NCBI RefSeq assembly: GCF_000348725.1
Contig: NC_020813.1
Coordinates: 1,240,001-1,304,000, forward strand
Origin: Pseudobdellovibrio exovorus JSS
GTDB taxonomy: Bacteria; Bdellovibrionota; Bdellovibrionia; Bdellovibrionales; Bdellovibrionaceae
DNA length: 64,000 nt
Reading direction: 5' to 3'
The notes under the pieces are model-generated. The model was not told the DNA's origin. It saw only the letters and a list, made by a program, of their open reading frames with translations, and did no database searches. Positions 1,000 to 10,826 of this stretch are shown piece after piece. Every line of letters begins with the position of its first letter. The first letter of the stretch is position 1. The position numbers were made by a program, and so were the translations under genes.

Positions 1000-2259
1000 A
1001 TGAAGTTAAATAAAATACACATGACGTCTATTTTGGCTGCGGCCGCTGTAATTGTTATCGCCGCGGTTTCGGTCTCTGGGAAAAAATTAGATAATTTAAA
1101 TTTGTTTAGAACTGCTGATGCTCAAGTTGAAGACATAAAAGAAGTTGAAGAGCCAGTGTTGACACTTGAACAGCGTTATCCTTATGAGTTTCCTCCGCGC
1201 TCAACATTTTATTCGCAGCTTTTAGAATTAGAAGTTCCGCGTGAGATTATTTTTCAGATGGTGCAAGTCATTCAGCCACATCAAGATTTAGGACGTTTAA
1301 AGCCAGGAACTCGTTTCCAGTTATTTTATTCTGAAGCGGAAGTTCCAGAAGTAACGGGAATTCAAATTCGCTTTACACCACAAGAAGCTCTCAAGGCGCA
1401 AAAAATTGATGGCATTTGGCAAGCGGAGCGTATTGTAAAACCAGTTGAAACAAAAGTGGTGACGTTCTCAGGAGATGTGAAGTCTTCTTTGTGGGAGTCT
1501 GCTGTTGAAGCGAAAATGGACCCTTACTTAATTGCTGAGCTAGCCGAAATTTTTGCATGGCAGATGGATTTTGCGCGCGAAGTCCGTGTAGGCGATCGAT
1601 GGAGACTTTCTGTCGAGCAAGAGTTTGTGCAAGGTGAAGCTGTGGGGTGGGGATCTATCTTAGCTGCGGAGTATGATAATGCGGGACGTATCTATGCGGC
1701 GATTTTGTTCCGTAATAATAATGAGAAGTTAGGATATTTTGCGCCGGATGGATCTAGTTTAAGACGTATGTTTTTGAAAACACCAATTCAATACGCCAGA
1801 ATTTCTTCGCGTTTTCAATCGAATCGTTTTCATCCTGTATTAAAAACAAACCGACCTCATTTGGGCGTAGATTATGCGGCTCCTACGGGAACGCCTATTC
1901 GTGCTATCGGTGATGGTGTTATCACTATGGCGGGATGGAATGGTGGCGGTGGCAATACTATTAAATTGCGCCACAATTCTATTTACGATAGTGCCTACAA
2001 GCATCTCAGTCGTTTTGCACAAGGGATCAAGAAAGGTTCGCGTGTGAAGCAAGGGCAGACTATCGGTTATGTTGGATCTACGGGGTTATCTACTGGCCCA
2101 CACTTGCATTTTGAGTTCTTTGTGCGTGGGAAATATGTTGATCCGTTGAAGCAGCAATTTCCATCGGCAGAACCAGTTCCGCCACGCTATTTAACCCAGT
2201 TTAATACAGACAAGGCCTCATTCTTAGAGACCTTGCCGCAATGGGAACAGGGAAATTAA
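1000..2259 (+). CDS. Secreted or membrane-anchored M23 peptidoglycan endopeptidase
   Basis: The 419-residue protein has an N-terminal hydrophobic segment (about residues 8-26), then a region resembling the Csd3/OapA-type N-terminal part of M23 proteins, then a C-terminal M23 (LytM) domain at about 275-385. The zinc/active-site set is visible: H287 and D291 (HLGVD), H335, and H368-L-H370. M23 enzymes cut peptide cross-bridges in peptidoglycan, so it should act in the periplasm on the cell's own wall or, in a predator, on prey wall. The start at 1000 has only a short AGG before it. Its stop overlaps by a few bases the stop of the convergent haem-c gene. Confidence 0.9.
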   Translation: MKLNKIHMTSILAAAAVIVIAAVSVSGKKLDNLNLFRTADAQVEDIKEVEEPVLTLEQRYPYEFPPRSTFYSQLLELEVPREIIFQMVQVIQPHQDLGRLKPGTRFQLFYSEAEVPEVTGIQIRFTPQEALKAQKIDGIWQAERIVKPVETKVVTFSGDVKSSLWESAVEAKMDPYLIAELAEIFAWQMDFAREVRVGDRWRLSVEQEFVQGEAVGWGSILAAEYDNAGRIYAAILFRNNNEKLGYFAPDGSSLRRMFLKTPIQYARISSRFQSNRFHPVLKTNRPHLGVDYAAPTGTPIRAIGDGVITMAGWNGGGGNTIKLRHNSIYDSAYKHLSRFAQGIKKGSRVKQGQTIGYVGSTGLSTGPHLHFEFFVRGKYVDPLKQQFPSAEPVPPRYLTQFNTDKASFLETLPQWEQGN

Positions 2260-3365
2260 TTAACTAATTTTTCGTAGCGTTCGAGTTGCTTTTGGACGGC
2301 TGGAGGGACTTCTGTTCCTCTAGAGCCGGTGAAAGAATCTAACTGAATTTGCTTATACAATTGAAAACATTTCTTAGCAGCAGGATGTTTGCTGTATCTT
2401 TCAATGCATTCTTTCAGATAGTTTTCAGATGTAAGATCAAACATAGTAAGACGGTAATCCTTTTCTTGGTCGGCTAACCAATAAAGAATCCAAGGTTTTA
2501 ATTGTGCGTTTTGAGTGGTTTCCAGTAATTGATACAGCCTTTGAGATGTTTCAAGATCAATTAAATAACTTTGATAAGATTGTTCGTAGTTAGAGGCAAT
2601 TTTTTCACGAGCCGCAATGAATTTTTCAAGTTGTTGCGCGTTTTTAAGTGGCATGCTCTCGGTAACTCTGAATTTACGATTTTTTAAATAACCTTTCCAT
2701 GCTTGAATATCTTGTTGCACGCTTTCTGGTAGATTTTTGTTTTTTAACAGACGATCAAATAGAGTCAGTGTTTTCACATCATCTTTTTCAACACGTACAG
2801 CATGCATCAAAAGTTTTCTTAGAGAGTTTTCGACGTTTTCAATAGAGACCTTGTTTTCAGGATAAGTGGTGATTACTTTTTCTAAAAGAGGGTTCGCGTC
2901 GTTATAATTTCGTACCATAAAAAGAAAGTCAGCCTGCGACAGTAAGTCGTCCTTTTGAGCTTGCGGTAATTGGTAACCTGTAGTGCCTAAACTTTTTTGC
3001 GTATGACATACATAACAGTTGTTGAGGGAAGATTTTAAAACCCAGTAACTGTAATCTTTCGAACCATCTTTAAACGAGAGTTCGGCATCTTCTAATCCTG
3101 CAGCCAGTTGTTGCATGCGAAACTTCATATCATCTTGTTTGGCAAACTTGTCTTTCTTTAGCTCTTGAACTTGTTGATTGAATTCTTTTAAGGTCGCAGC
3201 AATTTCCTTTTCATTATTTTTTTTCAAATAATCTGATTTATTGTGCGTATAATTCTGTAATTTTTCTGTTAAAAGATAAAAAGCCTGCATCTGAGGTCGT
3301 ATCTCAGCCATAACTGTGGCTGTTAATAGGATTAAAGATGGGGCGATCAGTCGACTGTATTTCAT
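2256..3365 (-). CDS. Periplasmic haem-c protein
   Basis: The 369-residue protein starts with a signal peptide (hydrophobic residues about 6-19, Ala-rich end) and carries a single haem-c site, C117-Y-V-C120-H121, in a charged, mainly helical sequence. The rest (about 150-369) is helical with no recognised motif and could be repeat-like. A GGAGG ribosome binding site precedes the ATG. The promoter region is shared with the divergent FNR-like regulator, and a 16-bp palindrome sits 49 bases upstream of this start, so the gene may be under that regulator. Role unknown; electron carrier or redox sensor are both possible. Confidence 0.7.
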   Translation of the reverse strand: MKYSRLIAPSLILLTATVMAEIRPQMQAFYLLTEKLQNYTHNKSDYLKKNNEKEIAATLKEFNQQVQELKKDKFAKQDDMKFRMQQLAAGLEDAELSFKDGSKDYSYWVLKSSLNNCYVCHTQKSLGTTGYQLPQAQKDDLLSQADFLFMVRNYNDANPLLEKVITTYPENKVSIENVENSLRKLLMHAVRVEKDDVKTLTLFDRLLKNKNLPESVQQDIQAWKGYLKNRKFRVTESMPLKNAQQLEKFIAAREKIASNYEQSYQSYLIDLETSQRLYQLLETTQNAQLKPWILYWLADQEKDYRLTMFDLTSENYLKECIERYSKHPAAKKCFQLYKQIQLDSFTGSRGTEVPPAVQKQLERYEKLVN

Positions 3366-3413
3366 AAGAACCTCCGAAACTTCCTTATTTTGAGTCTTTT
3401 TAGATCAAGAGGG

Positions 3414-3429
3414 TATGATTTCCGTCATA
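3414..3429. promoter_or_regulatory. Putative FNR-like operator, site 1
   Basis: A 16-bp inverted repeat, TATGATTTCCGTCATA, lies between the divergent haem-c gene and the FNR-like regulator gene. Its half-sites ATGAT/GTCAT resemble the FNR half-site TTGAT with four-base spacing. A second, perfect copy of the pattern occurs at 4214-4229. It could control either or both divergent genes, including autoregulation. Confidence 0.55.
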
Positions 3430-3502
3430 AACTAGCCCTGTGAAATTTTAGTCAAACAAGCTCGAGCTTGAAAAAAACACTGAAATTCAGTAAGCTACAG
3501 GC

Positions 3503-4201
3503 ATGAAACCTAAGCCCAACTCTGGACCTCAAATGCATGCCGATTGTACCGTTTGCGATACAAAATCTAAGGGTTTCATGTGTTCGACTTCTGATGCCGT
3601 TGCTAAAAAAGTAGCCGAGGTAAAAGCCGACTGTTCTTATCGTGCCGGAGAAGCTATTTTCCGTGCAGGTGAGCGCTCTTTAGGGCTATTCGCTGTTAGA
3701 AAAGGTGTGGTTAAACTTGAGTCCTTAAGTGCCGATGGACATTCGCACACAGTGGATTTGGTGGGACCGGGGGGACTATTAGGATACCGCGCTTTATTTG
3801 GTGAAGGTCTTTATAAGAAGTCCGCATGGGCTTTAGAAGATACCGAAGTCTGCTTTTTGCCTAAGCAAGAGATACTAGATTTATTTCGTTGCCACCCTGA
3901 ACTGGGGTTAAAAATGATCGGCCAATTAGGGGATGACCTCGATCGTGCTCAAGGGAAGTGGGTTAACCAAATCGACAAAGGGGCTCCGGCACGTGTTGCG
4001 GATGCTTTACTATTCCTTAACGAAAAATTCAGTGGAACTAGCTGGACACGAAAAGAGATTGCAGAGTGGGCCGGAACTACGACTGAAACGGTTATCAGAA
4101 CCCTAGCTCAGTTCGAAAAAGAGGGCATTATTTCCCAAAACTATAAGAATTTCACAATCTTATCCTTTCAACGTCTTTTGGAAAAATCGCAATCAGTCTA
4201 A
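3503..4201 (+). CDS. FNR-like Fe-S transcriptional regulator (Crp/Fnr family)
   Basis: The 232-residue protein has a cyclic-nucleotide-binding-type beta-roll (about 45-130), a dimer helix (about 135-160) and a C-terminal winged helix-turn-helix (about 180-215). Cysteines C15, C18 and C27 near the N-terminus, plus C117 in the position of FNR Cys122, match the four ligands of the FNR 4Fe-4S cluster, so oxygen sensing is likely. The recognition helix carries E195 and R199 as in FNR (E209, R213) but I198 where FNR has Ser212. It lies directly upstream of the cbb3 oxidase genes, between two similar palindromes. Family is certain; oxygen sensing is inferred from the cysteines. Confidence 0.85.
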   Translation: MKPKPNSGPQMHADCTVCDTKSKGFMCSTSDAVAKKVAEVKADCSYRAGEAIFRAGERSLGLFAVRKGVVKLESLSADGHSHTVDLVGPGGLLGYRALFGEGLYKKSAWALEDTEVCFLPKQEILDLFRCHPELGLKMIGQLGDDLDRAQGKWVNQIDKGAPARVADALLFLNEKFSGTSWTRKEIAEWAGTTTETVIRTLAQFEKEGIISQNYKNFTILSFQRLLEKSQSV

Positions 4202-4213
4202 TAATGATGGGTT

Positions 4214-4256
4214 TATGATGGCCATCATATTTTAAACCCAACAGCTATCCTATGAT
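4214..4256 (+). promoter_or_regulatory. Putative FNR-like operator and promoter of the cbb3 operon
   Basis: A perfect 16-bp palindrome, TATGATGGCCATCATA, lies at 4214-4229. A hexamer TATGAT that fits a -10 box lies at 4251-4256. A start of transcription six to seven bases after it (about 4263) puts the palindrome centre at -41.5, the classic class II activator position of FNR/CRP, and the -35 region is poor, as is usual for activated promoters. The transcript would then begin at or next to the ccoI start codon. Confidence 0.6.
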
Positions 4257-4262
4257 TGGGGC

Positions 4263-6485
4263 ATGCAACAGCCCCAAAAGGTACCTACAAATACAAATAT
4301 TCCATCTGATATGAAGTCAGAGGTGAAGTCGGACAAGACTTCAGAGGCGTGGGCTCGTTACAATCTTCATGAGGTCGAAGAGCAGTTTGATTTCGGTTCG
4401 CAAGCGGATACCAAAAAGTTTCGTTTTTATGTTGAAGGAATTCGCTGTGCCTCTTGCGTTCATCGCTTAGAAGAACTACCTCAAAAAAATAAAAGTATTC
4501 TATTATCTCAGGTAAATTTCGGTTTGAAGACGCTTGAGCTTCAAGTTGATAAGCAGTTGCATTTAGGCGATCTGGGGCAAGTTATTGAAAACATGGGATT
4601 TCATCCCACTCCGCTAAATAAAGATAACAGTATTTTAGATGCGCGAAAAAAAGAAAATAGAACTGATTTAAAAAGAATTGGTGTGGCGGCTGCAGTTGCA
4701 GGAAATCAAATGCTCTTTGCCGTGCCTTTGTATGCGGGATTGCAAGGGGATTTAGCCTCTATATTCAAATGGATATCTTTTACCCTTTTCTTGCCACTTT
4801 TATTTTATTCTGCCCGTGGATTTTATCATAAGGCATGGAGCAGTCTAAAAAGCCGTCAGCTCAATGTGGACATGATGATTGTTGTAGCTTTGTGGTCGGG
4901 GTTTATTTTTTCATCTTATAGTCTTCTGACGGGTGGTGAAGAACTCTATTTTGATTCTACAGCTAGTTTTATTTTTCTTATTTTAAGTGCGCGCTACTTC
5001 CTAAAAAAGTATCAAGAAAGATTTGCCGCCAAAGATATCATGTCCGAGATGTTTTTGCGCGAGATCTTCGATGTGGAAGAAGAAGGCATTCACCGCACAG
5101 TTACTTTTGATAAAATCAAAGTGGGTGCACATCTTTTTTTAAAACGAGGTCAGACACTTCCTTGTGATGCCGTTCTTGCTTGCGAAGACAGTGAGTTCGA
5201 TCTGTCGTTCTTGACAGGTGAGGCCTATCCGCAGAAGAAACAAAAAGGCGACTTGATTCGCGCTGGCAGTCGACTTTTAAGCCAAGAAGCGACTGTTGTC
5301 TGTGAAACTGAGAACGCGCAGACTCAATTGGCGAATCTTTTGAATTCATTAGCCCAGAAGCAAAAAAATAAAAGCACATATCAAAACTTAAGCGACATTA
5401 TAGCCCACAGACTGACATTCACTGTTTTTGCGATTGCAGGATTATTTTTTCTTTTCACTGTGCAGGAATCTGGAATTGAAGCTTTTAAAAGAAGTTTAGC
5501 CTTAATTACCATTGCTTGTCCGTGCGCGGTGGCCTTTGGAACTCCATTAGCACAAAGTATGGGGCTTCGTCGGGCCTTAGAAAAAGGCTATTTTATACGA
5601 TCTTCAGATGTTTTTGAAAAGTTAGACCAAGTTAAGAAGATTGTCTTTGATAAGACAGGAACTTTAACCTCAAGCCAGTTGAAGTTTATCAAAAGTTATC
5701 CCGAAAATATTTCAGATGAAGTAAAGGCTATTATTTTAGGCCTCGAAAAAAACTCAGTGCATCCAGTGGCGGTGAGTTTAAAGAACACGTGGGCATCCTT
5801 AAATCCTGCAGCGGTTGAAAACTTGCACGAAATCAGTGGTTTTGGCGTTGAGGGCACAGTCGATGGCAAGATCTATCGTTTAGGACGTTCGAGCACAACT
5901 GAAGATGAAAATCTACAAGTGGATCTGACTGTGGACGGACGGCGTGAAGCTTACTTGTTTTTCGAAGAAGAACTACGAACGGAAGCCAAAAGTTTGGTGC
6001 AAGAGCTCTATAAGCAAGATATGCAGGTGATGCTTCTTTCTGGAGACCGCCGTCAGCGCGCATTGGAAATAGCTCGCCAACTAGAGATTCGTCCCGCGGC
6101 TGTTCACAGTGATCAATCGGCAGAATCGAAACAAGCTGTTATCGAAAAAGAAAATCCATGTCTTTATGTTGGAGATGGGCTCAATGACTTGCAAGCGTTG
6201 AATGCGGCTTATGTGAGTTTCGCTGTGCGTGGTCCCTTCGAGGCCACTTATCAAGTCTGCGATGTTTTTGCTCCTCAAAAAGATCTTTCAGCCGTTGTTG
6301 AAATGTTAGAAATTTCAAGACAGGTCTATCGTGTTATTCGTGGGAATCTATTGTTTGCATTAGTCTATAACTCTATTGGTGGAGTTTTAGCTTTAAGTGG
6401 TTATATCAATCCACTGATGGCAGCCGTGTTGATGCCGATCAGCTCCGTTTTAATTATTTCGCACACAGTTTGGAGAATGAAATGA
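4263..6485 (+). CDS. ccoI: Copper-translocating P-type ATPase for cbb3 oxidase assembly (CcoI/FixI)
   Basis: The 740-residue P1B-type ATPase has a cytosolic heavy-metal-associated domain with C62-A-S-C65, several membrane helices, the membrane metal site C419-P-C421, the phosphorylated Asp D463 in DKTGT, and a GDGLND motif near residue 640. In this setting the family supplies copper to the binuclear centre of cbb3 oxidase. The stop overlaps the ccoS start as ATGA, which indicates translational coupling. The first ATG has no good ribosome binding site and may be used on a leaderless or near-leaderless message; an ATG at 4311 is an alternative start. Confidence 0.92.
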   Translation: MQQPQKVPTNTNIPSDMKSEVKSDKTSEAWARYNLHEVEEQFDFGSQADTKKFRFYVEGIRCASCVHRLEELPQKNKSILLSQVNFGLKTLELQVDKQLHLGDLGQVIENMGFHPTPLNKDNSILDARKKENRTDLKRIGVAAAVAGNQMLFAVPLYAGLQGDLASIFKWISFTLFLPLLFYSARGFYHKAWSSLKSRQLNVDMMIVVALWSGFIFSSYSLLTGGEELYFDSTASFIFLILSARYFLKKYQERFAAKDIMSEMFLREIFDVEEEGIHRTVTFDKIKVGAHLFLKRGQTLPCDAVLACEDSEFDLSFLTGEAYPQKKQKGDLIRAGSRLLSQEATVVCETENAQTQLANLLNSLAQKQKNKSTYQNLSDIIAHRLTFTVFAIAGLFFLFTVQESGIEAFKRSLALITIACPCAVAFGTPLAQSMGLRRALEKGYFIRSSDVFEKLDQVKKIVFDKTGTLTSSQLKFIKSYPENISDEVKAIILGLEKNSVHPVAVSLKNTWASLNPAAVENLHEISGFGVEGTVDGKIYRLGRSSTTEDENLQVDLTVDGRREAYLFFEEELRTEAKSLVQELYKQDMQVMLLSGDRRQRALEIARQLEIRPAAVHSDQSAESKQAVIEKENPCLYVGDGLNDLQALNAAYVSFAVRGPFEATYQVCDVFAPQKDLSAVVEMLEISRQVYRVIRGNLLFALVYNSIGGVLALSGYINPLMAAVLMPISSVLIISHTVWRMK

Positions 6486-6652
6486 ATGTCACCATTCTTT
6501 TTATGGTCGCCATAGCCTTGTATCTAGCTTTGGGCTTTGTCGTGGCTTGTCTGTGGGCTCTAGAAAAAGGTCAGTTTGATGATCTCGAAACACCAGCTTT
6601 AAGAATTTTAAAAAATGACGATTACAGTGATTTCAAAGAAAGGGATTCGTAA
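6482..6652 (+). CDS. ccoS: cbb3 oxidase assembly protein CcoS
   Basis: A 56-residue protein with one N-terminal membrane helix (about residues 3-27) followed by the CcoS signature GQFDDLE and a short acidic tail. The start at 6482 is chosen because its ATG overlaps the ccoI stop as ATGA; the longer frame would need a TTG. CcoS is required in other bacteria for putting haem b and copper cofactors into cbb3 oxidase. Its stop overlaps the ccoNO start by one base. Confidence 0.93.
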   Translation: MNVTILFMVAIALYLALGFVVACLWALEKGQFDDLETPALRILKNDDYSDFKERDS

Positions 6653-8754
6653 TGGATAAGCAACTTAAGATTAACTCGTATGATGACGCGATCGTCAGGC
6701 AATTTATATTAGCCACTCTAGCATGGGGTGGAATTGCATTTTTGGTCGGTCTATTCGCAGCACTCCAATTGGCTTATTGGCCATTTAACACATCGCTTGA
6801 ATGGCTAAGCTTTGGACGTATTCGTCCGCTTCATACCAATGCCGCGATCTTTGCGTTCGCTGGTAATGCGATTTTTGCGGGTATTTATCACTCTACGCAA
6901 AGGCTTTTGCGCACAAGAATGTTTTCTGATGTGTTAAGTCAGTTGCATTTTTGGGGTTGGCAATTGGTTATTGTTCTGGCCGCCATCACGTTACCTTTAG
7001 GATTAACACAAGGTAAAGAATATGCCGAGTTGGAATGGCCTATTGATCTTTTGATCACAACTGTTTGGGTTCTTTTTGCCATCAATGTTTTCGGTACGAT
7101 TTATCGACGACGCGAAAAACACATGTATGTGGCGATTTGGTTTTACATCGCCACAATCGTGACTGTAGCTGTTCTACATATTGTTAACTCGGCGGCGATT
7201 CCCTTTAGCTTTATGAAGAGTTACCCTGTATGGGCGGGGATGCAAGATGCTCTGATTCAATGGTGGTACGGTCATAATGCCGTAGCCTTCTTTTTGACGA
7301 CACCGTTTTTAGGTTTGATGTATTACTACATTCCTAAGGCTGTGAATGCGCCGATTTACTCTTATCGTCTATCGATCATTCACTTTTGGGCCTTGGTGTT
7401 TATCTACATTTGGGCTGGGCCGCATCACTTATTGTACACGGCTTTACCAGATTGGGCGCAGACACTAGGTGTTGTTTTCTCGGTTATGCTATGGGCACCG
7501 AGCTGGGGTGGAATGCTGAATGGTCTTTTAACATTTAAAGGCCGCTGGGGGCAGGCGCGTACAGAACCAGTTTGGAAGTTCTTTATTGCCGCTTTGACGT
7601 TCTATGGTATGGCGACATTCGAAGGTCCATTGTTGTCCATCAAATCTATTAGCTCTGTGGGACACTACACTGACTGGATTGTGGGACACGTTCACGGGGG
7701 AGCATTGGGGTGGAATGGATTCCTGACTTTCGGGATGATTTATTACCTTGTTCCAAAGCTTTGGAAGACGGAACTGTTTTCTAAAAAAATGGCCGAGCAA
7801 CATTTCTGGCTAGGTCTGACAGGTATTGTTCTTTACTACGTTTCCATGGTTGTTGCGGGTATTACACAGGGTCTTATGTGGAAAGCTGTTGATGGCAATG
7901 GGATGTTAGTTTACCCAGAGTTTGTTGAAACAGTGATGCGTATTGTGCCTTTATACTGGGTCAGAGCATTGGGTGGAGTTCTTTACATTACAGGTTTTGT
8001 GTTGATGTTGATTAATATCTACAAAACAGTTCGTAGCGGCAGTCGCCCTGTGGGAACACCGATTGGCAATCTACAAAATAACAATGTGAATGATGGGAAA
8101 CCAAGATTGTTAGAGGGATATGCAACTTACTTCACGGTGTTGTCGTTGGTGGCTATCCTTGTCGGAACTGTTATCGAGATCTATCCAACACTTAATGTAC
8201 ATAAATACGTGAACCCAGAAATCACGACGCATCCATTTTCAGCTCTAGAACAGGAAGGCCGTGATCTTTATGTACGTGAAGGCTGTTATGCATGTCACTC
8301 GCAGCAGATTCGTCCATTGGTAGATGAAAAATTACGCTATGGTGATCCGTCGACAATTGAAGAGTCTATCTATGATCGTCCATTCCAATGGGGATCGAAA
8401 CGTACAGGCCCTGATCTGGCGCGCGTTGGTAAGAAGTATCCGGATTACTGGCACTATCAACACATGATTGATCCGCGTCTGATGCAGCCGAAATCAATTA
8501 TGCCGTCGTATGAATGGCTAGTGAAAAAGAAAATTGATTACTCTCAGTTGAAAAAGAAACTGAATGTTCTGCAAAACTTAGGTGTGCCTTACACAGATGA
8601 TGAAGTGCGCTTTGCTGATCGTGATGCGCAAGAGCAAGCGCGTGTGATCGCTGAAGGATTAAAAGAACAAGGGGTACAAGAGAAAATCGAAGATCGCGAG
8701 ATCTTGGCGATTATTGCCTATCTTCAGGCTCTTGGACAAAAAGGAGGTCGCTAA
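6652..8754 (+). CDS. ccoNO: cbb3 cytochrome c oxidase, fused subunits I and II (CcoN-CcoO)
   Basis: This 700-residue protein fuses two subunits that are usually separate. Residues 1 to about 470 form the twelve-helix haem-copper CcoN core, including the HVHGGALGW segment near 345. After a short linker, a membrane anchor at about 485-505 leads into a CcoO domain with one haem-c site, C545-Y-A-C548-H549. The complex reduces oxygen at very low oxygen tension and pumps protons. Such fusions are known in Bacteroidetes and in Bdellovibrio relatives. Tight packing with ccoS and ccoQ, with one-base overlaps at both ends, shows a single operon. Confidence 0.95.
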   Translation: MDKQLKINSYDDAIVRQFILATLAWGGIAFLVGLFAALQLAYWPFNTSLEWLSFGRIRPLHTNAAIFAFAGNAIFAGIYHSTQRLLRTRMFSDVLSQLHFWGWQLVIVLAAITLPLGLTQGKEYAELEWPIDLLITTVWVLFAINVFGTIYRRREKHMYVAIWFYIATIVTVAVLHIVNSAAIPFSFMKSYPVWAGMQDALIQWWYGHNAVAFFLTTPFLGLMYYYIPKAVNAPIYSYRLSIIHFWALVFIYIWAGPHHLLYTALPDWAQTLGVVFSVMLWAPSWGGMLNGLLTFKGRWGQARTEPVWKFFIAALTFYGMATFEGPLLSIKSISSVGHYTDWIVGHVHGGALGWNGFLTFGMIYYLVPKLWKTELFSKKMAEQHFWLGLTGIVLYYVSMVVAGITQGLMWKAVDGNGMLVYPEFVETVMRIVPLYWVRALGGVLYITGFVLMLINIYKTVRSGSRPVGTPIGNLQNNNVNDGKPRLLEGYATYFTVLSLVAILVGTVIEIYPTLNVHKYVNPEITTHPFSALEQEGRDLYVREGCYACHSQQIRPLVDEKLRYGDPSTIEESIYDRPFQWGSKRTGPDLARVGKKYPDYWHYQHMIDPRLMQPKSIMPSYEWLVKKKIDYSQLKKKLNVLQNLGVPYTDDEVRFADRDAQEQARVIAEGLKEQGVQEKIEDREILAIIAYLQALGQKGGR

Positions 8755-8930
8755 TGTTACGACAAGCTTTTGCCTACTTTAGCGATGCCCATTTAACTGT
8801 TCTGGGATTCCTTTTGTTCTTCGGAACTTTCTTAGGAGTATTGATTTGGACATTTATGGTGCAAGAGACCTCTTTTTATCAACAACTGAGTATGCAGCCG
8901 CTAAAAGATGGAGGCGAAAATGAGCCATGA
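8754..8930 (+). CDS. ccoQ: cbb3 oxidase small subunit CcoQ
   Basis: This 58-residue reading frame is easily missed. Its ATG overlaps the ccoNO stop by one base, with AGGAGG a few bases before it. It encodes one membrane helix (about residues 14-36) with an amphipathic N-terminal segment and a short polar tail. Size, position between ccoNO and ccoP and the single helix fit CcoQ, which stabilises the binding of CcoP in other systems. Sequence similarity in this family is too low for certainty. Confidence 0.75.
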   Translation: MLRQAFAYFSDAHLTVLGFLLFFGTFLGVLIWTFMVQETSFYQQLSMQPLKDGGENEP

Positions 8931-9471
8931 AAAACATGTTTATGATGGTATCGAAGAGCACAATAATCCGATGCCGGATTGGTGGATATGGCTTTTCGTC
9001 GGCACAGTGATTTTCGGCGTTCTTTATTGGCTCCATTACGAAATCGGTGGCGGTGAGACCTCTAAGCAGCGCTATGAGCGCTTGTTAAAGGCGCACTATG
9101 AATCTAGTGAAAAGAATGCGCAATCCGCTATTGCCAGTGAAACAGAAGAAAGTCTGATGGAATACATGCAAGGGGAATCTGTCCTTGCAAATGGTGGACA
9201 AATTTATACTGAAAAGTGTGCCATGTGCCATGGACCACTTTTGGAAGGTCAGATTGGTCCGAATCTAACAGATAGTTTTTGGCTACATGGTCAGGGTACT
9301 CGATTGGATTTATTGCAAGTCATCCGCAAAGGAGTTCCTGAAAAAGGAATGCCGCCATGGGAAGGTTTGTTAAAGCCAGCTGAAATGAAAGACGTTGCAG
9401 CCTATGTGTATTCTAAAATCGGCAGTAACCCGCCAAATCCTAAAGTTCCAGAGGGGGCTGAGGTCAAATGA
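8920..9471 (+). CDS. ccoP: cbb3 oxidase mono-haem cytochrome c subunit CcoP
   Basis: The 183-residue protein begins with a soluble N-terminal segment containing the conserved EHNNPMPDWW pattern of CcoP and a single membrane helix (about 24-42). It continues into a periplasmic cytochrome c domain with C100-A-M-C103-H104 and a downstream GMPPW segment that offers the Met ligand. Classical CcoP is near 300 residues with two haems; this one has only one. The start at 8920 is preferred over 8908 because GGAGG sits five bases before it. It overlaps ccoQ by 11 bases and ccoG by ATGA. Confidence 0.92.
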   Translation: MSHEKHVYDGIEEHNNPMPDWWIWLFVGTVIFGVLYWLHYEIGGGETSKQRYERLLKAHYESSEKNAQSAIASETEESLMEYMQGESVLANGGQIYTEKCAMCHGPLLEGQIGPNLTDSFWLHGQGTRLDLLQVIRKGVPEKGMPPWEGLLKPAEMKDVAAYVYSKIGSNPPNPKVPEGAEVK

Positions 9472-10826
9472 GCCAAGTCACCAGCCCTTTTGCCGGACCA
9501 TCAGAGGTAAAAGGGCATTACGAAAGAATACGAAATATCCTTCAGCCAATACTGATTGTGGTATTTCTGTTTCTTCCGTGGGTCAGAGTGGCAGGTGAGC
9601 CGCTGCTGCTTTTGGACTTTGCGAATCGCCATTTCATTATTTTCGGGATTAACTTCTATTCACATGAAGCTCCGTTACTTTTCTATTTTCTTATTCTGAT
9701 TTTACTTTCCATTTTTATTGTGACAGCCGTTTTTGGACGTCTTTGGTGTGGGTGGACTTGTCCACAGACAGTTTTTCTTCACAGTGTATTTAATAAAATT
9801 GAAAAATGGGTTCTTGGACCTTTTTCTAAAAGAATGAGTTTTTATAATTCTGCAGAAAGCTGGAGCAAAAAAATAAAAGTTCTGTTCCTCTATATTGTCT
9901 TCTTATTGATCTGTTGGGTGCTATCGCACTCATTTGTTGCTTACTTTGTTGGGTCCGAAAGCCTTGTGCGCTTTATCGTCGAAGGACCATGGCAGCATCC
10001 TGTGGCCTTTTCTGTATTAGCTATCATGACAGGTGCTTTCTTTTTTAATTTCGTATTTTTCCGTGAAAGACTTTGTATCTATGTCTGTCCCTATGGACGA
10101 TTTCAAAATGCACTGATCGATAACAACTCTTTAGTGGTTTATTACGATCATGTTCGTGGCGAGCCCCGTGGCAAACGCCAGACTGCAGATAAAGGGGACT
10201 GCGTTGACTGCAAACGCTGTGTGACAGTTTGCCCTGTCAAGATCGACATCCGTCAAGGATTCCAATTGGACTGCATTGCCTGTGGAAAATGTATCGATGC
10301 CTGCAACGAAATTATGCCGAAGGTGCAAAGACCACAGCACTTAATTCGCTTTGAAACTGGAGATCAAAAAAAGATCAGTGTGAAGCGTTTCCGCTTGGTG
10401 CTGTATACACTTTTGTTTGTGGTTTTTTCTGGAGCTTTTGCGTGGTCACTTGGCAATCGAGCGGGTATTGATGTCGCCATTACGCGGTCCCATCAGAACT
10501 CTATTAGTAAAAGAGTGTCAGATATATCTAGTGGCGCAACGACGATCTGGCAAAATCAATTTCAGCTTCATATTAAAAATCAAATGCAGAAATCAGTCGA
10601 GATGACTTTAACCCTTTCAGAAAAAGACCTGAAACAAGGGTATCGTCTTCTGAGTCCAGCGGTACGTATGACTTTGGCTTCACAACAGGACAGCAAGCTT
10701 CCTGCCTTTATCGAAATCTCAGAAAGTGATTTAGAAAAAGCGCAGACCCATGAAGATTTAGAATTGATCATTCAGGTCGGTCCAGAAGTGCATGTTAAAA
10801 AAATCAGATTTATGCAACTTCGCTAG
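9468..10826 (+). CDS. ccoG: cbb3 oxidase assembly ferredoxin-like protein CcoG (RdxA/FixG)
   Basis: The 452-residue membrane protein has several helices in its first half and again near 310-330, and a GRLWCGWTCPQ segment near residue 88. Two 4Fe-4S cysteine clusters lie at about 245-285 (CVDCKRCVTVCP and CIACGKCIDAC), followed by a C-terminal Ig-like domain on the periplasmic side. In Rhodobacter the family reduces copper for cbb3 biogenesis. Its start overlaps ccoP. It closes the operon; no ccoH gene follows. Confidence 0.93.
   Translation: MSQVTSPFAGPSEVKGHYERIRNILQPILIVVFLFLPWVRVAGEPLLLLDFANRHFIIFGINFYSHEAPLLFYFLILILLSIFIVTAVFGRLWCGWTCPQTVFLHSVFNKIEKWVLGPFSKRMSFYNSAESWSKKIKVLFLYIVFLLICWVLSHSFVAYFVGSESLVRFIVEGPWQHPVAFSVLAIMTGAFFFNFVFFRERLCIYVCPYGRFQNALIDNNSLVVYYDHVRGEPRGKRQTADKGDCVDCKRCVTVCPVKIDIRQGFQLDCIACGKCIDACNEIMPKVQRPQHLIRFETGDQKKISVKRFRLVLYTLLFVVFSGAFAWSLGNRAGIDVAITRSHQNSISKRVSDISSGATTIWQNQFQLHIKNQMQKSVEMTLTLSEKDLKQGYRLLSPAVRMTLASQQDSKLPAFIEISESDLEKAQTHEDLELIIQVGPEVHVKKIRFMQLR

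Follow-up and report, generated by a model that had tools for sequence, protein, structure and literature searches.

We consider it likely that Pseudobdellovibrio exovorus JSS carries an FNR-type low-oxygen activator that would act on the operator YATGAY-N4-RTCATR, centred at -41.5, and drive both the ccoI operon and a divergently transcribed haem-protein gene. According to this proposal, a dimer of the regulator would bind YATGAY-N4-RTCATR, which has the spacing of the FNR site and its TGAY/RTCA core, with A replacing FNR's outer T. From -41.5 it would recruit RNA polymerase and lead to transcription of ccoI-S-NO-P-G, and binding to a second palindrome would lead to transcription of the haem-protein gene. 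That the protein carries a cluster, senses oxygen and activates its targets we infer.

P. exovorus JSS is an epibiotic predator (PMC11656739). Its genome was searched as a single contig of 2,657,893 bp, and the window is the whole stretch of DNA analysed, 64,000 nucleotides at positions 1240001-1304000 of that contig. The comparison set consists of orthologous loci from relatives within the same order; these genomes are related, and counts among them are therefore not counts of independent events. The regulator and cco genes lie on the plus strand of the window. The regulator gene (3503-4201) is followed by ccoI (4263-6485), which encodes a copper P-type ATPase for cbb3 assembly, and by a small membrane ORF of 56 codons, read from the sequence (6482-6652), which overlaps both ccoI and ccoNO and which we call ccoS-like from its position. 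Next come ccoNO (6652-8754), encoding fused cbb3 oxidase subunits I and II, a gene for a ccoP-like subunit III that scores below the equivalog cut-off (8908-9471), and ccoG (9468-10826).

The ccoI operator and promoter

The sole palindromes in the window that match without a mismatch are TATGATTTCCGTCATA at 3414-3429 and the perfect TATGATGGCCATCATA at 4214-4229, both present as the sequence-only reading had described them. The latter is the putative ccoI operator, of the form YATGAY-N4-RTCATR, a designation based on its sequence and its conservation in relatives. The FNR site is TTGAT-N4-ATCAA. Judged by comparison of loci, the ccoI operator does not take that form but reads ATGAY-N4-RTCAT; the earlier description of an FNR-like site with ATGAT half-sites is upheld at ccoI, with ATGAY as the non-FNR half-site.

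We aligned 29 ccoI loci on their palindromes. Farther downstream of the operator, the strongest conserved columns are 39 (A at 26/29 loci) and 43 (T at 27/29), which fall on the second and sixth bases of a -10 hexamer in columns 38-43 and put +1 near column 50. In the window, the hexamer is TATGAT at 4251-4256 on the plus strand, 21 bp past the operator, and column 50 is base 4263. Geometry and conservation together predict that transcription starts at this base, which is the A of the ccoI ATG. The ccoI promoter has the layout of a class II promoter, with a -10 box and with the centre of its operator at -41.5 from the predicted start. The arithmetic behind the earlier placement at -41.5 was right, and it is now backed independently by the conserved columns of the 29 loci. 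Since the predicted +1 coincides with the A of the ATG, we predict that ccoI is transcribed as a leaderless mRNA in the window genome. Of the 28 loci examined, 8 have an in-frame ATG right at column 50 and several more have one no more than three columns away, without a Shine-Dalgarno sequence. In most members of the genus Bdellovibrio (group g4), the ccoI leader is about 12-18 nt long and has a Shine-Dalgarno sequence.

Palindromes can fold, and distance by itself does not prove activation, so the element could instead be a repressor site or a DNA or RNA hairpin. We regard this as highly improbable given the fixed -41.5 geometry and the conserved -10 box, -41.5 being the classical activating (class II) position. 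Moreover, the inner N4 varies among the aligned sites, whereas the half-sites are conserved, and at the N4 spacing only.

The palindrome at ccoI follows the regulator among these relatives. Counting strictly, as a perfect YATGAY-N4-RTCATR within 450 bp upstream of a ccoI match, we found the site in 31 of 34 genomes that encode a cysteine-bearing regulator versus 0 of 30 that have ccoI but no such regulator, so the expectation that relatives would keep the palindrome upstream of ccoI is borne out. It was likewise found in 0 of the 4 genomes whose regulator is without cysteines (G014, G017, G019 and G024). The same half-sites at spacings of 0-3 and 5-10 gave 0 or 1, and shuffled controls gave 0.015 per set. 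Fisher's test on the site-regulator contrast gives p ~7e-13, a value that ignores relatedness and is to be taken only as a strong contrast. Within one genus, G048, G051 and G054 have both site and regulator and G046 and G049 have neither, and this presence and absence inside a single genus indicates that the contrast is more than shared descent. (G045, a single contig of 3.3 Mb from the same genus, yielded neither the regulator nor ccoNO.) The site also remains upstream of ccoI at L064, L069 and L076, where another gene lies between the regulator gene and ccoI, and at L074, where the regulator gene is found some 9 kb off.

The regulator and its recognition helix

The 232-residue product of 3503-4201 is a member of the Crp/Fnr superfamily, with a cNMP-binding-like domain (PF00027, 71.7 bits against a cut-off of 27.5) and a Crp-type helix-turn-helix (PF13545, 51.9 bits against 27). 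Its AF2 model matches CRP and the holo-FNR of Aliivibrio fischeri; in the structural alignment, identity to FNR is only about 24%. The three N-terminal cysteines and one distal cysteine that mark an FNR-type sensor, C15, C18, C27 and C117, had been noticed earlier and prove to be invariant in 22/22 aligned orthologues; the regulator is of the FNR type and probably [4Fe-4S]-bearing. In G014, G017, G019 and G024, the regulator has lost the three N-terminal cysteines together with C117 and no longer adjoins cco. Such joint loss of all four cysteines is as expected if they hold one cofactor. The orthologues at L086, L088, L090 and L091 are without all four ligand-type cysteines and retain a PETVIR helix.

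The recognition helix reads T-T-E-T-V-I-R, with T194-E195-T-V-I198-R199. Here E195, T196, V197 and R199 are invariant in the 22 aligned orthologues, and every orthologue whose helix is readable has I or M at position 198. In the alignment with FNR's VETISR, Ile198 takes the place of Ser, so the helix does not have the E-x-x-S-R of FNR proper; as had been pointed out, Ile stands in place of FNR Ser212, and Glu and Arg (Glu195 and Arg199) are kept. The protein resembles FNR of E. coli and A. fischeri in its Crp fold, in its E..R helix and in having four ligand-type cysteines, of which C117 aligns with the distal cysteine of FNR, and also in N4 spacing, class II placement at -41.5 and targets of the cbb3/denitrification type. 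It differs from them in the half-site (ATGAY versus TTGAT), in having Ile/Met for Ser212 and Thr/Pro for Val, and in a cysteine spacing, CX2CX8C, unlike that of E. coli FNR. It scores below the cut-off of the FNR-subfamily model (NF008365, 56.8 bits versus 228). Thus, as judged from sequence, the regulator is FNR-like but departs from FNR proper in model score, helix and operator. FnrN, FixK and FnrL of Alphaproteobacteria control cbb3 operons, as the regulator is proposed to do here; it falls far below the cut-off of the FnrL model (54.4 bits versus 300). For FnrN, FixK and FnrL, the DNA-contacting residues are reported to be highly conserved, with no group-specific changes (PMC4999443).

Some other regulator might bind the palindromes, whether the second protein of the Crp kind or a factor unrelated to it, and the adjoining FNR-like protein would then be incidental. 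Two Crp-type helix-turn-helices, and only two, score above cut-off in the P. exovorus genome, the second at 261143-261331, and relatives have several paralogues, some with ETVIR-type helices. We nonetheless judge this very unlikely. The second protein has STVIK in place of the E..R arrangement, and hence no Glu/Arg pair, and is without the N-terminal cysteine motif; its homologues occur in genomes that have no ccoI site (G003, G026, G032 and G033, for example), whereas the ccoI site tracks the cysteine-bearing regulator in the strict count given above. In Flavobacteriaceae, furthermore, ccoI and the gene for the FNR homologue usually point away from each other, with the palindrome between them. 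The adjoining FNR-like protein is thus our preferred candidate.

The second palindrome and the regulon

The sequence-only reading had assigned the palindrome at 3414-3429 to the regulator gene as its own operator, and here the comparison points elsewhere, to the divergent gene at 2256-3365 on the minus strand. This gene encodes a 369-residue protein with a single haem motif, CYVCH, at residues 117-121, and is the predicted second target. On the minus strand the palindrome reads TATGACGGAAATCATA and lies 49 bp upstream of the start of the divergent gene (3365); the same strand shows CAAAAT (3387-3392), a -10-like box at the distance of class II promoters, with a predicted start near 3380, and a Shine-Dalgarno GGAGG (3371-3375). 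The relative G051 has such a palindrome 45 bp ahead of the haem-protein homologue, with the regulator gene some 2.5 kb downstream of it. An autoregulatory role, alone or shared with the divergent gene, would have in its favour that the site lies in the common intergenic region, 74 bp from the regulator ATG, where steric repression is possible. We think this unlikely, since on the plus strand, on the regulator side, there is no -10 box at class II distance, the class II -10-like box being on the opposite strand, and no comparable site lies upstream of the regulator gene in 30 relatives. The 3414-3429 palindrome is accordingly better read as a putative class II operator of the divergent gene than of the regulator.

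The haem protein has a signal-like N-terminus and is predicted to be all-helical, with the haem motif ending a predicted helix and helical repeats following it. It matches no known family, and a structure search with its model (pLDDT 62) returned no significant match. Homologues are present in G051 (50% identity) and G048 (28%).

In the P. exovorus genome, only the promoters with these two sites qualify as targets. TATGATN4ATCATA with at most one mismatch occurs at 13 places in the whole 2.66 Mb, of which 10 are inside ORFs, two are the intergenic sites at 3414-3429 and 4214-4229, and one (L007), which looked like a third intergenic site, was dropped because it overlaps an ORF at the start codon. 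The preferred control for enrichment is the same half-sites at other spacings; among the matches listed of 104, counted by eye, about 24 half-site pairs have the N4 spacing versus about 10-18 at other spacings. A reversed-pattern control (6 versus 0 in the window's genome) was set aside, as genomes without the regulator show a similar excess. The genome-wide enrichment anticipated earlier is therefore present only as a weak excess at N4, which we attribute to the fact that the P. exovorus regulon looks, from its sites, like two promoters. Across the order, site counts fail to track the presence of the regulator.

In relatives, class II-type sites precede genes for NirK-like, NorC-like, pseudoazurin-like and COX3-like proteins, and further sites of this type precede genes for cytochrome b561, hemerythrins, a CBS-domain protein and a small 4Fe-4S/radical-SAM protein. 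This target set is FNR/DNR-like, and paralogues may share sites in those genomes. A site at the fifth codon of a cytochrome-oxidase-subunit-IV-like gene (L098) looks like a coincidence in coding sequence. Several Bdellovibrio-genus genomes have a conserved YATGAY-type palindrome between divergent Sdh-cytochrome-b-like and ETF-beta-like genes (L155 3244-3259, L151 3428-3443 and L132 2054-2069), some about 20 kb from the record start. In G051, a palindrome at L136 5735-5750 separates TauE/SafE-like and small lipoprotein-like genes, with class II-type -10 boxes facing either way.

A second phylum and a possible recognition code

The same pairing of protein and site is seen in Flavobacteriaceae. 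Both ATGAY arms are present upstream of ccoI in 17/30 cases, at the N4 spacing only, and the core NTGAY-N4-RTCAN in 28/30. The FNR homologues of this family have a T-E-x-x-I-R helix in 30/30 and cysteines aligned to C15, C18 and C117; Cys27 is absent from its aligned position. In E. coli FNR, the main contacts are reported to be made by Glu209, Ser212 and Arg213 (PMC4505428). The sequence-only reading had suggested a coupled change in protein and site. What stands of this suggestion is that the E-x-x-[I/M]-R helix is associated with ATGAY in two phyla, a correlation only, which is consistent with Ile198, together with Thr/Pro194, setting the base preference; position 194 and its surroundings also differ from FNR, so Ile198 is not singled out.

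It could be argued that the regulator reads ordinary FNR sites and that the outer A/T difference is drift of no functional meaning. The contacts ascribed to the Glu and Arg of FNR and CRP fall within the common TGAY-N4-RTCA core, TTGAY sites lie near cco or denitrification genes in some relatives, and the A position varies in some Flavobacteriaceae arms. The aligned ccoI sites make drift a rather improbable explanation, however, with A in column 2 at 28/29 loci and T in column 15 at 29/29 (28 of these loci having been retrieved by an ATGAY..RTCAT search), and in most loci no TTGAT-type site was found in place of the ATGAY site. In addition, the TTGAY sites occur mostly where a paralogue with the helix RPETFSR is also present (G004, G005, G012, G021 and G025). 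This paralogue, presumably of the DNR/NnrR type as judged from its helix, belongs to the same superfamily and to the same Bdellovibrio genomes as the regulator but has an FNR-like F-S-R helix and TTGAY sites. In genomes with the RPETFSR regulator, TTGAY boxes also adjoin YATGAY sites at ccoI and nirK (L070 6291, L152 3250 and L166 3328).

We therefore favor a distinct preference over drift, and we lean toward the view that Bdellovibrionota and Bacteroidota share an FNR-type subclass in which [T/P/S]-E-x-x-[I/M]-R would read an outer A rather than T, whose regulon textbook matrices would miss, and for some members of which the main target, ccoI, would be leaderless. In the open-access papers searched, we found neither a published Bdellovibrio FNR motif nor an ATGAT half-site for Crp/Fnr proteins. 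Matrices built on E. coli and other Proteobacteria are the common basis of FNR regulon predictions. E. coli FNR sites and, for the Flavobacteriales homologues, a MalR matrix were used in one microbiome study (PMC8510549). If ATGAY is the actual site in Bacteroidota and Bdellovibrionota, such predictions would overlook the microaerobic regulon in two large phyla. The sign is one letter per half off the textbook FNR sign, recurs with the same kind of protein in a second phylum and has a high-affinity oxidase as its apparent target. The helix and operator may amount to a natural experiment on the joint change of a residue in the recognition helix and a base in the operator, set in predatory bacteria whose oxygen response has been little studied.
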